30,567 nucleotides of DNA from positions 1-30,567 of the IMG/VR virus record IMGVR_UViG_3300042894_000571, one strand, 5' to 3'. Source of the stretch: a virus. Shown one piece after another: positions 16,852 to 30,567 of this stretch (within the stretch, counting starts at the first letter, position 1; every line of letters begins with the position of its first letter). The translations under genes were made by a program, and so were the position numbers. The notes beneath the pieces were generated by a model. That model had not been told where the DNA came from. It ran no database searches and saw nothing but the letters and a program-made list of their open reading frames with translations.

Positions 16852-17067
16852 TTATTTATTGAAGCAATCAAGTAAAGTTACAATGTCTAAATTTGTTTTG
16901 TTGTATTGGCAAATGCTTGAAGCAACACTAACTGTCAAATACAATGGGCTTATTTGCTCTTTCGCTAAATCGCTTTTTAAACTTTCAATTAAATGCGGAT
17001 ACTTTTCTGCATCTTCATTCATTGCTTGTAATACTTCTGGCTTTAATCTTTCAAATAGTGTTTTCAT
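16852..17067 (-). CDS. Small acidic/helical protein, unknown
   Basis: A 71-residue protein beginning MKTLFERLKPEVLQAM. A GTG at 17112 would add 15 residues, but the ATG at 17067 has the leader ACACTAAAACT directly before it, matching the repeated leader motif, so 17067 is preferred. The predicted helices (residues 1-35, and SICQYNKTNLDIVTLLDCF at the end) show no known domain. It is transcribed from the promoter at 17384 and ends before a strong terminator. Such a short two-gene unit between terminase and tail genes may be regulatory, but nothing in the sequence proves it. Confidence 0.65.
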   Translation of the reverse strand: MKTLFERLKPEVLQAMNEDAEKYPHLIESLKSDLAKEQISPLYLTVSVASSICQYNKTNLDIVTLLDCFNK

Positions 17068-17078
17068 AGTTTTAGTGT

Positions 17079-17136: not shown

Positions 17137-17346
17137 TTAGTTTATTTTAATTTTGTCTGTTCTAATCCAAAAATCGTTTGTATTTATGTCTTTCGCGCCA
17201 ATCCAGTTATAACCAGATGTATAAACAATTAGTTCTAAATCACTAAATTCGTTATAACTTTTAACATTTTTAAATTGTCCAAGATATTTTGCAAATTCTT
17301 TTTTAGTGATTTTTGCTTTTTCCATTCCTATTAGTGATATTGTCAT
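17137..17346 (-). CDS. Small protein, first gene after promoter at 17384
   Basis: A 69-residue protein starting MTISLIGMEKAKITKKEFAKYL. An internal Met at residue 8 is a possible alternative start. It has a short lysine-rich N-terminal helix, then SGYNWIGAKDINTNDFWIRTD. The upstream ACACTAAAA leader and a TATATTTG promoter make it the first gene of a small transcript. I do not recognise the family. Confidence 0.65.
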   Translation of the reverse strand: MTISLIGMEKAKITKKEFAKYLGQFKNVKSYNEFSDLELIVYTSGYNWIGAKDINTNDFWIRTDKIKIN

Positions 17347-17383
17347 AATTTCTATTTTTTAGTGTTTCGCTTTATTGCTGGTA

Positions 17384-22318: not shown

Positions 22319-22525
22319 TTAAGGTATTAAACGGTTAATCTGTTCTTTCTCTTCATCTGAATAAAACTCTACAAATTCATAGTACTCATCGTAAAAAACT
22401 GAATACTTCAATTTTGGATGTACCATTTGCCATTTCTGTTTCATTGCGTTGGCTTCTTGCTCGTCTAGTAATATTGTGTGCGGGTAGCCCTCTTCTAGTA
22501 GAACCCATCTTTTGTCTTGTATCAT
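22319..22525 (-). CDS. Small acidic protein, unknown
   Basis: A 68-residue protein starting MIQDKRWVLLEEGYPHTILL and ending EQINRLIP, with an acidic Tyr-rich centre (YDEYYEFVEFYSDEEKEQ). The ATG overlaps the 39-residue gene's stop (ATGA). No domain recognised. Confidence 0.65.
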   Translation of the reverse strand: MIQDKRWVLLEEGYPHTILLDEQEANAMKQKWQMVHPKLKYSVFYDEYYEFVEFYSDEEKEQINRLIP

Positions 22526-22641
22526 AATAGTTTTTTTAATTGTTTTAGTAAGTATTTCATTTTATCAACTTTGCCAAATAGATTCCAATTAGATCCAAGT
22601 TGATTTAATTCATTTTCTAATTGTTCTATAATTTCTTTCAT
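22522..22641 (-). CDS. 39-residue helical micro-protein
   Basis: Starts MKEIIEQLENELNQLG and ends LLKQLKKLL; heptad-like leucines suggest a short coiled coil or helical hairpin. ATGA overlaps at both ends with the neighbouring tiny genes are good evidence of translation. Function unknown. Confidence 0.6.
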   Translation of the reverse strand: MKEIIEQLENELNQLGSNWNLFGKVDKMKYLLKQLKKLL

Positions 22642-22978: not shown

Positions 22979-23129
22979 CTTTATAAGTTTTAATATTAAT
23001 TTTAGCTGTTTTCTTTTCGCTCTTTACGGGCTGAATATTGATTGATATATCAATGTGGGTTAATTCTTTGTCTCTTTGAAATACGGCTTTCATTTGCTCG
23101 TATATTTGTATCCAGTCTTCATAACTCAT
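22962..23129 (-). CDS. 55-residue small protein
   Basis: Starts MSYEDWIQIYEQMKAVFQRD and has a beta-like middle (HIDISINIQPV) and basic end. Its ATG overlaps the preceding stop (ATGA) and its own 3' end overlaps the next gene by 17 nt. Unknown function. Confidence 0.6.
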   Translation of the reverse strand: MSYEDWIQIYEQMKAVFQRDKELTHIDISINIQPVKSEKKTAKINIKTYKDANKI

Positions 23130-23287
23130 TTGATTATCATTTTGATTGATTCAATGTATTTGTAGTAAAGTGTTTTACTTCTGAACCTTTCAAGTGCTTC
23201 TGGTAGTGTGTAGGCTTGAATGATTGTTTCGATGTCTGTTGCTTCATCGTTTCGCTCTGCCCAATAGGTAACTAAAAATTCTTTCAT
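23126..23287 (-). CDS. 53-residue small protein with leader motif
   Basis: Starts MKEFLVTYWAERNDEATDIE. The strand-helix pattern with LPEALERFRSKTLYYKYIESI resembles small phage proteins of about 55 residues. Directly upstream lies the leader TAATCACTAAAAC with 8 nt to the ATG; its first bases are the stop codon of the previous gene, so here the motif acts inside an operon, not at a promoter. Unknown function. Confidence 0.6.
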   Translation of the reverse strand: MKEFLVTYWAERNDEATDIETIIQAYTLPEALERFRSKTLYYKYIESIKMIIK

Positions 23288-23295
23288 TTGTTTTT

Positions 23296-23305
23296 GTTTT
23301 AGTGA
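23296..23305 (-). promoter_or_regulatory. Leader motif TCACTAAAAC
   Basis: Lies 8 nt before the ATG at 23287. Perfectly complementary over ten bases to the loop region of the candidate small RNA at 28478-28552. Confidence 0.5.
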
Positions 23306-23542
23306 TTAAAATTTAGACATAATTTGTTTTGCAAAAAAAGGCTTAATATTAAAAACAATACAGTCATTGCCTAAATCCTTACCTACAAATGCACTTTTAG
23401 GTAACCAATGTAATTTACCATACATTTGAATTAAAACTGCTTTTTCTGTTTCTTTTTCTACATCTAAAAAGAATCCATCTGGTGTAGCGATTGAACCTAA
23501 ATTTCCATTCGGGTACGTGTAGTGTTGTTTTTCTAATTGCAT
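23306..23542 (-). CDS. Small protein, first gene after promoter at 23571
   Basis: A 78-residue protein starting MQLEKQHYTYPNGNLGSIAT. The core EKETEKAVLIQMYGKLHWLPKS is a pattern of small beta-rich phage proteins. It has a good promoter (TTTG-N19-TATCTTTG) and the TCACTAAAAC leader 7 nt before the ATG, so it begins the run of small middle genes. Unknown function. Confidence 0.65.
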   Translation of the reverse strand: MQLEKQHYTYPNGNLGSIATPDGFFLDVEKETEKAVLIQMYGKLHWLPKSAFVGKDLGNDCIVFNIKPFFAKQIMSKF

Positions 23543-23549
23543 CTTTTTT

Positions 23550-23559
23550 GTTTTAGTGA
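23550..23559 (-). promoter_or_regulatory. Leader motif TCACTAAAAC
   Basis: Lies 7 nt before the ATG at 23542, within the 5' leader of the transcript from the promoter at 23571. Confidence 0.5.
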
Positions 23560-26004: not shown

Positions 26005-26916
26005 TTATAAAAAATTTAATTGTGATTCTTTTATCGTTTGAAGTATGCTTTTACCGTTTAATGCAAAGCCTACATTGTTGTACATCGCTGTTAAAATTAT
26101 CGGGTCATCATACGGTGTGGGAATGCCGCCTGTTTCAACTTCTTTTATCTTTCTAACGTGTATCATTGTTTGGTTCCAGATTGTTGAATGCCCTACTAAA
26201 CGATGTATAACAATAAAATCGTCTGCCCGGTTTACAAACTTGCCTCCGCCTTCAACATCGTTTGCCATTGGTGGTTGTGGATAGCCTGCAAATGGATGCT
26301 GTAAATTATATAACATTCTTAAAGCTGTGGTATTTGCGTGTGTATTTAACCAGATTGATACTTTGTTCTCTTTGCAAAACATTCTTAATTCGGTACACGC
26401 TTGATAATCGTACTCGTGACCGCCAAGGTTCTTCATCATTTCTGGCTCTTTTGCCAAACTGTTGTACGGATCTAATAATATACCATCAAAGTTAAATTCT
26501 TTTTTGACTTTGCCAAACATTTCAATAGCTGTGATATAAGTGTACATAACTGCATTATCTACGAACTTAAAATGCTGATTGATAAAATCTGTGTGCGTTT
26601 TAAAATTAGAATCAGAAACAAGGTTTATTGGTGTTTCATCCAAGAACTCAACTAACTTTCTAATTAATGAATAGCTATCATTTTCTGTTGAGCATATTAA
26701 CCACTTTTTACCGTGCTTTAAAGAATATGCCAACATCAAATAAAGTATCGAAGTTGTTTTACCTACGTTTGCGTGTCCCAGAATGATATTAAAATTTGAT
26801 GGTTTAAAGCGGATGTAGTTGTCTATTTCTGGAATTCCTAATCTGTATCCCTCTTTTAGTTTTCCGCTTCTTATATCCTTTAAAATGGATAGTTGATGTT
26901 TATAGTCTATTAACAT
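26005..26916 (-). CDS. DnaB-like replicative helicase (RecA-type ATPase)
   Basis: A 303-residue helicase-type ATPase lacking the usual DnaB N-terminal domain. Walker A GHANVGKTT is at residues 47-55 and Walker B DGILLDPYN at about 144-152. CSTENDSYSLIRKL and the later IWLNTHANT (sensor-like His) and GGGKFVNRADDFIVIHR follow the order of DnaB-type helicases. It would unwind DNA at the phage replication fork. The leader TCACTAAAAC lies only 3 nt before its ATG. Neighbouring ERF, SSB-like and NinG genes form a recombination-dependent replication block. Confidence 0.8.
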   Translation of the reverse strand: MLIDYKHQLSILKDIRSGKLKEGYRLGIPEIDNYIRFKPSNFNIILGHANVGKTTSILYLMLAYSLKHGKKWLICSTENDSYSLIRKLVEFLDETPINLVSDSNFKTHTDFINQHFKFVDNAVMYTYITAIEMFGKVKKEFNFDGILLDPYNSLAKEPEMMKNLGGHEYDYQACTELRMFCKENKVSIWLNTHANTTALRMLYNLQHPFAGYPQPPMANDVEGGGKFVNRADDFIVIHRLVGHSTIWNQTMIHVRKIKEVETGGIPTPYDDPIILTAMYNNVGFALNGKSILQTIKESQLNFL

Positions 26917-26919
26917 TTT

Positions 26920-26929
26920 GTTTTAGTGA
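26920..26929 (-). promoter_or_regulatory. Leader motif TCACTAAAAC
   Basis: Lies 3 nt before the helicase ATG at 26916. A GGGG/CCCC hairpin (26937-26952) just upstream lacks a T-run and could be a processing or pause signal. Confidence 0.45.
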
Positions 26930-26965
26930 GTTTAAATGGGGCTTTTACACCCCGTTAAGTTAATA

Positions 26966-27904: not shown

Positions 27905-28120
27905 TTAAGATTTTTTAAGTGTGTAATTAAATTGATTCATAAATTGATAATAGTGATTCATTCCGTTGGATACTATTTCTGCATCAATAACCTCGATGTT
28001 GTTTAATAGTCTTTCGTTTTCATCCATTAGCCTTGTGTTCTCGGCTCTTAATGCTTCGTTTGATTGGCTCAAATAGTTTACCAATTCTTTTGTACTCCAG
28101 CTTTCGTTAATTCTGCTCAT
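27905..28120 (-). CDS. Small coiled-coil protein
   Basis: A 71-residue protein. ELVNYLSQSNEALRAENTRL then MDENERLLNNIEVIDAEI form a leucine-zipper-like coiled coil (about residues 12-48). The TCACTAAAAAC leader lies 7 nt before the ATG. Unknown function; might be a recombination accessory since it directly precedes ERF. Confidence 0.6.
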   Translation of the reverse strand: MSRINESWSTKELVNYLSQSNEALRAENTRLMDENERLLNNIEVIDAEIVSNGMNHYYQFMNQFNYTLKKS

Positions 28121-28127
28121 TGTTTTT

Positions 28128-28138
28128 GTTTTTAGTGA
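28128..28138 (-). promoter_or_regulatory. Leader motif TCACTAAAAAC (one extra A)
   Basis: Lies 7 nt before the ATG at 28120, overlapping the end of the 25-residue ORF. Confidence 0.45.
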
Positions 28139-28219: not shown

Positions 28220-28390
28220 TTAGTTGTTTAAGTATTGTCTTCCTAAATTAATAGCATCGTATTGTCTTGCGAAGTTTGTTCTGTTTAATCTTAAACCTTC
28301 TTTTGTAACTGGGTAAAAGAAAATTCTTTTTGTTCCTGCTTTTTGAATTTTTACAATTACGATTGTTTTGTTGTTTTTTGTAAGTGTCAT
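28220..28390 (-). CDS. 56-residue basic protein, first gene after promoter at 28428
   Basis: Starts MTLTKNNKTIVIVKIQKAGT and includes KRIFFYPVTKEGLRLNRTNF then ARQYDAINLG. It is basic, with beta-strand start and helical end, typical of small nucleic-acid-binding phage proteins, but not recognised. A good promoter and the TCACTAAAAC leader (8 nt before the ATG) support it. A longer ORF over the same bases in another frame starts at TTG and has implausible Lys/Asn-rich composition. Confidence 0.65.
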   Translation of the reverse strand: MTLTKNNKTIVIVKIQKAGTKRIFFYPVTKEGLRLNRTNFARQYDAINLGRQYLNN

Positions 28391-28398
28391 AATGTTTT

Positions 28399-28408
28399 GT
28401 TTTAGTGA
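28399..28408 (-). promoter_or_regulatory. Leader motif TCACTAAAAC
   Basis: Lies 8 nt before the ATG at 28390, within the leader of the promoter at 28428. Confidence 0.5.
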
Positions 28409-28458: not shown

Positions 28459-28477
28459 TAAAAAGTGAATTATTTTT

Positions 28478-28510
28478 AAAAAAAAATCCTCAACATTTCT
28501 GCGGAGGATC
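28478..28510 (-). terminator. Intrinsic terminator of the candidate small RNA
   Basis: Minus-strand hairpin ATCCTC/GAGGAT (28504-28509 with 28486-28491) followed by nine T residues. It isolates the HNH cassette and small RNA from the next promoter. Confidence 0.8.
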
Positions 28511-28552
28511 TTTCGGGTTCACTAAAACCATTTAAAAACACAATATTTATGA
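28478..28552 (-). ncRNA. Candidate ~75-nt small RNA with anti-leader loop
   Basis: A TATATTTG promoter (28557-28564) would start an RNA at about 28552, and a hairpin ATCCTC/GAGGAT followed by a T9 run ends it at about 28478. Between them GGTTTTAGTGAACC (28516-28529, read on minus) folds as GGTT/AACC around loop TTAGTG. GTTTTAGTGA is the exact reverse complement of the leader motif TCACTAAAAC found before several phage start codons. No ORF of useful size lies inside. It could be a trans-acting regulator of translation. An alternative is a relic leader for a lost plus-strand gene. Confidence 0.5.
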
Positions 28553-28556
28553 TAAG

Positions 28557-28586
28557 CAAATATACTACTTTATTTGTTTAACTAAA
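28557..28586 (-). promoter_or_regulatory. Promoter for candidate small RNA (TTTA-N18-TATATTTG)
   Basis: On the minus strand TATATTTG is at 28564-28557 with a near-consensus TTTA at 28586-28583, spacing 18. It overlaps the last codons of the HNH gene. Confidence 0.55.
28572..28585. repeat. 14-bp direct repeat flanking the HNH cassette, right-hand copy in transcription order
   Basis: The 14-mer ATTTGTTTAACTAA (plus strand) at 28572-28585 recurs at 29149-29162, bracketing a 577-base unit with the HNH gene and its leader RNA. In both copies a TATxTTTG promoter element follows closely on the minus strand. Confidence 0.6.
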
Positions 28587-29039
28587 TAAAATTTGATTTC
28601 TTTTTAAAATAGCATCTTCAATTTTTTTAAATGTTCCAAATGTTTTTTTTATTCCATCAATTCTCATTCTAACAATATATGAAGAATTATTTTTATAAAT
28701 ATTAAAATGTCCAGATTTAGATGTTTTATCTTTATATGAATTTTGTCTTTGTGTGATTAATTGTAGATTTTCTAATTTATTATTTTTTTTATCATTATCA
28801 ATATGGTCAATAACTATATGCCTTCCTTTTAATTCTATATCATTAAAGTTTTCATATACTAATTTATGAATCATTATAGTTTTAATTTTATTATTTTTAC
28901 ATAAATTAACGTGTTTATATCCACTGTTACAAAAACCATATTTTAATATTTTTGGTTTATTTTTAAAACTAATTACATTTCCATAATTGCTAATTTGGTA
29001 ATCACCATCATAATTTTTAACATCAATATATATTTCCAT
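28578..29039 (-). CDS. NUMOD4-HNH homing endonuclease
   Basis: A 153-residue nuclease. The N-terminal NUMOD4 part is YDGDYQISNYGNVISF (residues 10-25). The HNH part follows, with IHKLVYENF and VIDHIDNDKKNNKLENLQL (His79, Asn86/Asn91), and the C-terminal AP2-like part is YIVRMRIDGIKKTFGTFKK (about 121-139). It cuts DNA at a specific site to spread itself. An upstream TTG at 29060 would add seven residues but lies in a hairpin; the ATG at 29039 follows the terminator T-run immediately. The gene is visibly more AT-rich than its neighbours and sits between 14-bp direct repeats, as expected for a mobile insertion. Confidence 0.9.
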   Translation of the reverse strand: MEIYIDVKNYDGDYQISNYGNVISFKNKPKILKYGFCNSGYKHVNLCKNNKIKTIMIHKLVYENFNDIELKGRHIVIDHIDNDKKNNKLENLQLITQRQNSYKDKTSKSGHFNIYKNNSSYIVRMRIDGIKKTFGTFKKIEDAILKRNQILFS

Positions 29040-29043
29040 AAAT

Positions 29044-29086
29044 AAAAACCCACATATCAAAAGGTCGTCGTCTTTATCAATGTGGG
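29044..29086 (-). terminator. Terminator hairpin directly before the HNH start
   Basis: Minus-strand CCCACAT pairs with ATGTGGG, with an inner AAAG/CTTT and a GACGACGAC loop region, then five T residues. The HNH ATG (29039) begins 4 bases after the T-run, so the hairpin may attenuate HNH expression. Its loop can pair with GTCGTCG at 29112-29118. Confidence 0.75.
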
Positions 29087-29138: not shown

Positions 29139-29696
29139 CTATTTTTTCATTTGTTTAACTAATATATCATATTTTAATTTTTTTGAAATTAATTCTGCCT
29201 TAGTGAATTTGTAATCTCTTTTAATGTCTGATTCGCTTTCTAATTGCTCTACAAACTCAATTCCATAACGTTTAATCAATCCTTTTCTATATTCTAATAA
29301 ATTACCAGCAAGAAACTTATTACAGTGTGTATTGCATTGTTTATGGCAATTCCTTTCATCAAACATTAATCCTGAATATTTCCCTGCAGAAAAGTAATGA
29401 CCTCCAGCCCAATCGGTCGTTTTCATATTTCCGCAACTAATGCAGGGTTGTTTATCATCACGCATTCTAACCCACTTTTGAAAGGCTTTCTTTGCTTCTG
29501 CTTCATATTGTCCCAGCGTTTTAAGTTTATCCTTTAAAATGGCTTTTTCTGCTCGCCATTCTTTTTGCTCTTTCTCTTTCTGTTTATTTTTTGCAAGTTG
29601 AATAGCACATTTATAATCGCAGGTTTGTTGGTTGAACCTTTCTAGTACAAATTTTTGACTGCAAACTTTACATTTCTTCAACTTGATTTCTTTCAT
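29139..29696 (-). CDS. ninG: NinG/Rap-like recombination protein
   Basis: A 185-residue protein of the lambda NinG (Rap) family, a Holliday-junction-targeting recombination nuclease. The N-terminal zinc-ribbon-like Cys pairs are C9-x2-C12 and C26-x3-C30. A basic coiled middle and PCISCGN (about 84-90) then DWAGGHYFSAGKYSG follow, ending with NCHKQCNTHCNKFLAGN, the HNH-like/zinc core of NinG. The length is usual for the family. Its ATG overlaps the preceding stop. It lies in the early block with ERF and SSB-like genes. Confidence 0.85.
   Translation of the reverse strand: MKEIKLKKCKVCSQKFVLERFNQQTCDYKCAIQLAKNKQKEKEQKEWRAEKAILKDKLKTLGQYEAEAKKAFQKWVRMRDDKQPCISCGNMKTTDWAGGHYFSAGKYSGLMFDERNCHKQCNTHCNKFLAGNLLEYRKGLIKRYGIEFVEQLESESDIKRDYKFTKAELISKKLKYDILVKQMKK
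29149..29162. repeat. 14-bp direct repeat flanking the HNH cassette, other copy
   Basis: Identical to 28572-28585 and located in the last codons of ninG (reading AAACAAATG before the stop). Consistent with a target-site or promoter-region duplication when the cassette entered. Confidence 0.6.
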
Positions 29697-29944
29697 TACA
29701 TTTTATCGTTAAATTCGTGTCTTACTATACTGTCAATCTTTTTAGTCATATTGTGAAAGTATGTGCTCTTTTGAACTGTGTAGGTATTTGCTACGTCGTC
29801 ATTTAAAGCTTCGCATAATCCAATTAAATCGGCTTTAAACTTTACCATTTTAGCGGATGTTGGTTTAAGTTCGTCAAGGCTTTCTAATAGTAGCTGACTA
29901 ATGCAGTATAGTTTGTGAATTTCGGTGTTTTTCTTTTTGCTCAT
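29696..29944 (-). CDS. Small early protein, unknown
   Basis: An 82-residue helical protein starting MSKKKNTEIHKLYCISQLL and ending VRHEFNDKM. It is the first gene after the large noncoding region, so it is probably made soon after infection. Leader AACTAAAACACA precedes the ATG. Overlaps ninG by one base. I do not recognise the family; an early host-takeover role is conceivable from position only. Confidence 0.65.
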   Translation of the reverse strand: MSKKKNTEIHKLYCISQLLLESLDELKPTSAKMVKFKADLIGLCEALNDDVANTYTVQKSTYFHNMTKKIDSIVRHEFNDKM

Positions 29945-30156
29945 TGTGTTTTAGTTTTTAGTTGTTTTTTTTATTTTTAATCATAGCTTCGCTTTTATGC
30001 TACATTAGGACCAGAACCCTAAATTAACATTGATTAATTCCCTATTCAATTAATAAAGCAATATCTACACTTTCCTGCTACGCCAATTTCTTATTTACTT
30101 CTCCTTTCGGAATGGCTTTTTAGTTCAGTTGTATTTTAACCTTTCGGAATGTAGCA

Positions 30157-30349: not shown

Positions 30350-30402
30350 ATTTAGGTTATTAATTAAGGCAACCTAAATCAATAGGTTGCACCCTAATTG
30401 AT
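30312..30402 (-). ncRNA. Candidate ~90-nt structured RNA or early-operon attenuator
   Basis: From a consensus promoter (TATATTTG at 30414-30407) an RNA starting near 30402 would end at the 30312 terminator. Competing helices are visible. Helix P1 is 30398-30403 with 30321-30326 plus 30389-30395 with 30328-30334. Helix A is GCAACCTA/TAGGTTGC (30383-30390 with 30369-30376). Helix B is ATTTAGGTT/AACCTAAAT (30371-30379 with 30350-30358). P1 blocks the terminator. It lies before the whole early transcript, so it may gate it. Confidence 0.5.
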
Positions 30403-30406
30403 GCAC

Positions 30407-30436
30407 CAAATATATAAACTATTTTTTAATTACAAA
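30407..30436 (-). promoter_or_regulatory. Strong Bacteroidota-type promoter (TTTG-N18-TATATTTG)
   Basis: On the minus strand TATATTTG is at 30414-30407 and TTTG at 30436-30433, spacing 18. It is the only good TAnnTTTG promoter I found between the lysis genes and the first early gene. Confidence 0.8.
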
Positions 30437-30440
30437 TACT

Positions 30441-30567
30441 TTTTTTCAATTTATTTTTAAAAATAATTACAAACGCATTTAAAGGCTGTTTAACAAACGA
30501 TAAAATATAAACTATATCAATATACCAAAAATACATTATCATTCTTTAAAACAACTAAAAAGGCTAT
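30441..30567. repeat. Exact terminal direct repeat (circle overlap), right copy
   Basis: Identical to bases 1-127. Supports circular closure of the contig. Confidence 0.9.

Follow-up and report, generated by a model that had tools for sequence, protein, structure and literature searches.

Phage-encoded small RNAs that pair with phage mRNA include sar of P22 and OOP of lambda (PMC12197685), each of which is antisense to a single target, and sar is known to block translation initiation of ant (PMC12197685). The c4 RNA of P1/P7 and the CI RNA of satellite P4 are phage RNAs of ~70-80 nt that pair with short leader segments and control lytic genes; both are derived from that same leader transcript, and their action is confined to one operon. 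Additional phage-encoded regulatory small RNAs, several of which act in trans, are VpdS (phage VP882), PreS (lambda), and 24B_1 (Stx phage phi24B) (PMC12197685). They are linked to Hfq and have host, mixed, or single-gene targets, and the review attributes no phage-wide leader motif to them (PMC12197685). Silencing of a translation-enhancing element near the start by a multi-target small RNA has been reported for GcvB and yifK in enterobacteria (PMC3879156), where the small RNA is chromosomal and its targets are amino-acid genes with Shine-Dalgarno motifs. Finally, the stoperators of Cluster A mycobacteriophages are phage-wide asymmetric motifs that differ between related phages (PMC6550527, PMC9283540), and these are recognized in DNA by a repressor protein. 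In the open-access literature that we searched (PMC12197685 and others), no family was found that combines one phage RNA with a co-varying phage-wide leader motif.

The RNA analysed here is similar to these systems in part. Unlike sar and OOP, it matches many leaders encoded elsewhere and co-varies with them between lineages; unlike c4 and P4 CI, it has its own promoter and terminator and many targets; unlike GcvB, it is directed at a shared phage leader; and, in contrast to stoperators, the motif is apparently read by an RNA. Complementarity to several mRNAs encoded elsewhere, which is the criterion for a trans-acting antisense RNA, is met, whereas location on the strand opposite to the target, which is the criterion for a cis-antisense RNA, is not, as the unit shares a strand with its targets and lies at a separate site. 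The RNA likely behaves like a trans-acting antisense RNA rather than one of the cis-antisense sar/OOP type, with its expression and its effect on targets being inferred.

The window (the whole stretch of DNA that was analysed, 30,567 nucleotides) is a single virus record, IMGVR_UViG_3300042894_000571, with nearly all genes on the minus strand. Besides genes for portal, terminase, and endolysin, it encodes ERF, a DUF3127 SSB, a DnaB-like helicase, and NinG in a region devoted to replication and recombination. A direct repeat of ~200 bp is present at positions 1-200 and about 30360-30567, suggesting that the genome is complete and terminally redundant. Among the window proteins tested, which did not cover every gene, neither an integrase nor a repressor was detected. 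These phages look like viruses of Bacteroidota, which are their likely hosts and probably do not use Shine-Dalgarno pairing; the host itself is unidentified. The helicase is absent from 399 Flavobacteriaceae genomes except for two remote matches, and the lack of prophage copies in these genomes argues mildly against a role in lysogenic immunity.

The small RNA unit and the leader motif in the window

The initial annotation had claimed that a promoter and a T9 terminator enclose a ~75-nt noncoding unit whose core lies in a GGTT/AACC hairpin, and both claims held. All elements were located on the minus strand, and the promoter-to-terminator span (28477..28552) corresponds to a predicted transcript of ~75 nt that is syntenic and conserved in relatives. 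The -7 promoter element TATATTTG (28557..28564, minus strand) fits the Bacteroidota consensus TAHHTTTG (PMC6847099). Considering that transcription in Flavobacterium starts 4-5 nt past this box (PMC6847099), the start is predicted at 28552 or 28551, which gives the length of ~75 nt; under the same rule the window RNA would begin exactly at UCAUAA (28547..28552, minus strand), the complement of the start-codon segment UUAUGA, and most freshwater relatives also have CATAA ahead of the core. The hairpin GGUU-UUAGUG-AACC (28516..28529, minus strand; GGTT-TTAGTG-AACC at 28529-28516 in the DNA), whose stem shows covariation, contains the antisense core GUUUUAGUGAAC (28517..28528, minus strand), which is the complement of UCACUAAAAC and identical in 10 distinct sequences. 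An intrinsic terminator (28477..28509, minus strand) closes the unit, with an ATCCTC/GAGGAT stem at 28509-28486 and T9 at 28485-28477. Folding of the unit gives z = -4.3, much of which is supplied by the terminator. A search against Rfam gave no match above the gathering threshold for the window (best weak match, E = 1).

It had also been claimed that four start codons are preceded by TCACTAAAAC at a distance of 3-8 nt and two others by variants, and this was confirmed and extended. On the minus strand, TCACTAAAAC is located at 28399..28408, 8 nt before the ATG of gene 28220-28390 (56 aa), which is the first gene past the small RNA and has its own TATCTTTG box; at 26920..26929, 3 nt before the ATG of the DnaB-like helicase gene (26005-26916); at 23550..23559, 7 nt before the ATG of gene 23306-23542 (78 aa); and at 23296..23305, 8 nt before the ATG of gene 23126-23287 (53 aa). 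Variants on the same strand precede about five other start codons. The two already claimed are CACTAAAA at 28130..28137 for gene 27905-28120 (71 aa), directly upstream of the ERF and SSB genes, and CACTAAAAC at 17069..17077 for gene 16852-17067 (71 aa). Those added here are CACTAAAA at 17357..17364 for gene 17137-17346 (69 aa) and the weaker variants TTACTAAAAC at 22542..22551 for gene 22319-22525 and ACTAAAAC at 29948..29955 for gene 29696-29944. One further exact sense copy of TCACTAAAAC, at 24718-24709, is intragenic and was missing from the initial annotation.

The enrichment of the motif in leaders is not due to chance. With at most one mismatch, 11 matches are present in the window vs 3.9 expected, and among 1,500 permutations of its ten letters the motif itself occurs in 4 leaders and every other word in no more than 1. 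The tendency of motif-bearing genes to be early genes (9/34 vs 1/22, p = 0.07) is only suggestive. Gene starts were assigned by a simple ORF rule.

A terminator-like hairpin is located directly ahead of the helicase leader in the window (26930-26965, minus strand) and in L116, L123, L125, and L147, and it bears a T-run in several relatives. Given the position of this hairpin upstream of the leader, helicase mRNA must come from read-through, processing, or an unseen promoter.

Conservation of the unit and the motif in relatives

Relatives were gathered by a helicase search, which returned both close and distant phage contigs, followed by a search with the core pattern. A plain core-plus-T-run pattern gave 66 viral matches, most of which lack the promoter and hairpin and represent chance matches, while genuine members carry the complete architecture. 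The place and sequence of the unit are kept in L001-L005, L010, L011, L071, and many more, and the -7 box precedes it in nearly all relatives whose contig extends that far. The unit sits at the same position just past ninG, directly after it in L004. A NUMOD4/HNH endonuclease gene (28578-29060, minus strand) separates ninG from the small-RNA promoter in the window and is missing at that site in L004; this gene looks like a recent homing insertion.

The core GTTTTAGTGAAC is constant in ten distinct versions of the RNA; this invariance arises partly by construction because most sequences were found using that pattern. The hairpin stem was examined in 10 distinct sequences, in which 96% of cells are paired and the covariation score is 0.36 vs 0.078 for shuffled data (0 of 500 shuffles reached it). 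The pair flanking the core switches among G-C, A-U, U-A, and U-G with pairing retained, and diverged members place the loop UUAGUG within other stems such as GGU/ACC (L128) and AGUUU/AAACU (L125). The letters of the terminator stem vary between relatives, and the presence of a stem is retained.

Two parts of the initial picture need correction. First, the antisense segment had been placed in the loop only, whereas in most closer relatives CAUAAU and a few bases ahead of the core extend it through the start codon, being antisense to ...AUUAUG; the L025 RNA UCAUAAUUUUGUUUUAGUGAAC, for example, is the exact complement of GUUCACUAAAACAAAAUUAUGA. Second, display of the antisense segment in a hairpin is not universal among lineages, unlike complementarity, which nearly is. 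In L131, L137, L145, and L149, the antisense segment is divided into two arms around an internal segment that is absent from the leader and in most of these phages forms a small hairpin, a layout found in marine lineages.

One could propose that the unit encodes a micropeptide, considering that the window unit contains an ATG with 13 codons (ATGGTTTTAGTGAACCCG... reads MVLVNPKDPPQKC). However, this ATG is missing in L005, L010, L071, L073, and others, and conservation tracks complementarity rather than the reading frame. The frame is not conserved in the relatives compared, and the micropeptide was rejected on the absence of a conserved ATG; this reading is all but excluded, and the unit is noncoding with its own promoter and terminator.

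The leader motif follows the RNA type. In phages with a TTAGTG-type RNA, CACTAAAA has a density of 8.1 per kb in leaders vs 0.073 per kb in gene bodies, and of 0.12 in the leaders of phages with other RNAs. Sense copies are upstream of starts in 101/119 cases, in contrast to 0/20 for antisense copies, 17/20 of which are the small RNA itself. Counted by ortholog, 12 phages have the motif at the helicase, 10 at the 71-aa gene (28120), 7 at the gene starting at 17067, and 6 at ERF. In a G-U test on leader variants, variants that break pairs were enriched too. The motif is specific to the phages: before ATG in 60 Flavobacteriaceae genomes it is found at 2.0 per Mb, below the backwards control at 2.7, compared with 131 in the window. 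When 84,980 genomes were scanned with a strict pattern, 22 matches were returned, 0 of which have the promoter and terminator. Host origin or host targeting was rejected on the absence of these elements from the genome-scan matches and the lack of motif enrichment in Flavobacteriaceae.

Cultured relatives are all distant (helicase identity 32% or less). A like scan detected no such RNA in Maribacter phage Panino (scanned over part of its genome) or Flavobacterium phages Fpv5 and mumin9-1. Cellulophaga phage phi38:1 (L176/L179, NC_021796) has a repeated leader motif of another kind, (A)AACACTATCAAA, at about 12 places, mostly ahead of early genes (e.g., 11455, 11971, 14924, 19240, and 24424), and the same kind of scan of phi38:1 found no small RNA complementary to its leader motif AAACACTATCAAA.

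Another noncoding unit, ~95 nt long and also conserved, was observed in the window at about 30420-30315 (minus strand); it comprises a TATATTTG box, a terminator, and an element, CTATTGATTTAGG, that is invariant. It is also present at L005:391, L010:3287, L104:3609, L105:5556, L106:4817, L113:812, and L120:4779, and RNAalifold predicts 23 pairs for it, 7 of which are changed on both sides.

Joint change of the RNA and the leaders

At least seven other lineages have a different leader motif together with a small RNA that is altered in a complementary manner. The L106 RNA contains CTTTGTTTTGGTTTAAA and its helicase leader TTTAAACCAAAACAG; in L131, hairpin-joined segments GGATTTGTTAAT...TTGTTTATA correspond to the helicase leader TATAAACAATTAACAAATCC, and in L149, TTTGGTAG...GTTTTATTGTT correspond to AACAATAAAACACTACCAAA. 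Helicase leaders of L147, L130, L145, and L155 are likewise matched by their own RNA (RNA CTGTTTTTGTTTAA and leader TTTAAACAAAAAACAG in L147, TTTGTCCTTG and CAAGGACAAA in L130, CTATTGTCCTAGA and TTTAGGACAATA in L155). In the differing lineages, pairing of the own RNA with the helicase leader reaches -15 to -21 kcal/mol, while the median for RNAs of other phages is near -7 to -8.

Permutation tests show that this correspondence is not accidental. For the helicase leader alone, own vs cross pairing among 17 representatives gives z = -7.54 (p = 1e-5), and for all leaders in 14 group representatives z = -6.84. In the all-leader test, gene-body decoys (z -0.8 to -1.4) and sense-strand RNA (+0.6) served as controls, and reversed RNA gave z = -2.7, implying that part of the pairing signal is base composition. 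In a 27 x 27 RNA-leader matrix the trace is -52.8, and the lowest value among 20,000 permutations is -28.2. Relatedness is only partly controlled in these tests. The match is not perfect everywhere: sister TTAGTG-group RNAs fit the leaders of the window equally or better (its own RNA ranks 8 of 27), L007-L009 have a drifted RNA (TTAGTAAT) that their leaders match less well, and the helicase leader is mismatched in L160 and L171, where the units picked may be wrong.

Phages with RNA types C and D fall within the type A phages in a tree of helicases, whose sequences are very similar (those of L120 (A) and L121 (D) are nearly identical), so the RNA and its leaders have switched together recently and across short evolutionary distances. 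With the partial control of relatedness noted above, the sequence comparison shows that pairing between the RNA and its targets is maintained by co-variation. The event that would have refuted the initial reading, i.e., retention of the leader motif after loss of the complementary loop, was looked for among relatives and was not met: nearly all relatives that have a clear leader motif and the post-ninG region on their contig possess a promoter-to-terminator unit complementary to the motif.

These data bear on two rival readings. The first holds that the unit is merely the terminator of the ninG operon with a spurious promoter and matches the leaders by chance; its location directly behind ninG (behind the HNH gene in the window) and the good terminator at its end are in favour. 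However, the core is kept though terminator stems diverge, the stem around it covaries, and leader co-variation is seen in several lineages (p = 1e-5). On conservation and co-variation this reading was rejected, and it is all but excluded.

Under the second, a phage repressor or another DNA-binding protein would bind the shared motif as a DNA site, the copy in the unit being another such site and co-variation arising from changing protein specificity. Stoperators are asymmetric, scattered over the genome, and different between immunity groups (PMC9283540, PMC6550527); therefore, co-variation alone cannot exclude this reading. Stoperators are placed in one orientation. The repeated motif of phi38:1, for which no matching RNA was found, also speaks for a DNA site. 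On the other hand, the unit copy is always reversed and lies between a promoter and a terminator, the spacing of the motif is fixed relative to ATG and not to the promoter, the surrounding stem covaries, the antisense segment runs through CAUAAU, the start-codon complement, in most freshwater relatives, and it is interrupted in the two-armed marine RNAs by a segment that the leader lacks. The start-codon complement and the split arms fit RNA pairing better than a DNA operator. The locus does not meet the description of a stoperator-type element, namely a uniformly oriented DNA site that involves neither a transcript nor RNA structure, and a DNA site appears very unlikely.

Proposed action on early genes

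Sequence comparison establishes the unit, the motif of the regulon, and the way both have changed together among lineages; what follows is inferred with regard to expression, repression, and timing. We consider it likely that the unit encodes a small phage RNA that base-pairs in trans with early-gene leaders, most probably blocking initiation. The 5' part of the RNA and its hairpin loop would be antisense to the leader common to an early-gene regulon, which comprises the helicase, the operon leading into the ERF recombinase and SSB, several small genes, and NinG in some relatives. Pairing would span the mRNA from about -20 to +3, the entry site for ribosomes working without Shine-Dalgarno pairing. 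In Flavobacterium, low structure favours initiation, as do adenines at positions -3, -6, and -11 to -14 (PMC6847099); as the pairing covers the favourable adenines, repression is expected, an inference made without expression data. The RNA may thus block initiation on all regulon mRNAs at once, and early synthesis could be lowered, for instance, after the RNA accumulates. Its possible purposes are lowering early genes, balancing them, or acting on co-infecting relatives. In the absence of expression data, it remains an inference that the RNA is made, that it is paired in the cell, and that initiation is blocked.

It is also conceivable that the RNA pairs with the leaders yet helps expression, either by opening an inhibitory structure or by shielding the 5' ends of mRNAs from decay. 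Activation of targets is known for some bacterial small RNAs, and structure might matter near the helicase leader, where the terminator-like hairpin lies just ahead. However, both the start codon and the A-rich segment favourable to initiation are covered by the pairing, and A-rich leaders are unlikely to be structured, so there would be little to open; activation is thus considered unlikely. The initial reading of a trans-acting small RNA on shared leaders is supported, while its production during infection and the choice between blocking and helping remain inference.

If the RNA acts by pairing as proposed, its scope would differ from that of phage antisense RNAs in the open-access literature searched, which have one target or act on host genes: a single RNA apparently addresses a whole phage gene set via a shared leader word, and changes to this word have several times been accompanied by changes to the RNA. 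Across the lineages, matched and mismatched pairs of RNA and leader are naturally available as a series for testing. Two questions are thereby made testable, namely post-transcriptional gene timing in Bacteroidota phages and the joint change of specificity in a regulatory RNA and its many-target regulon.
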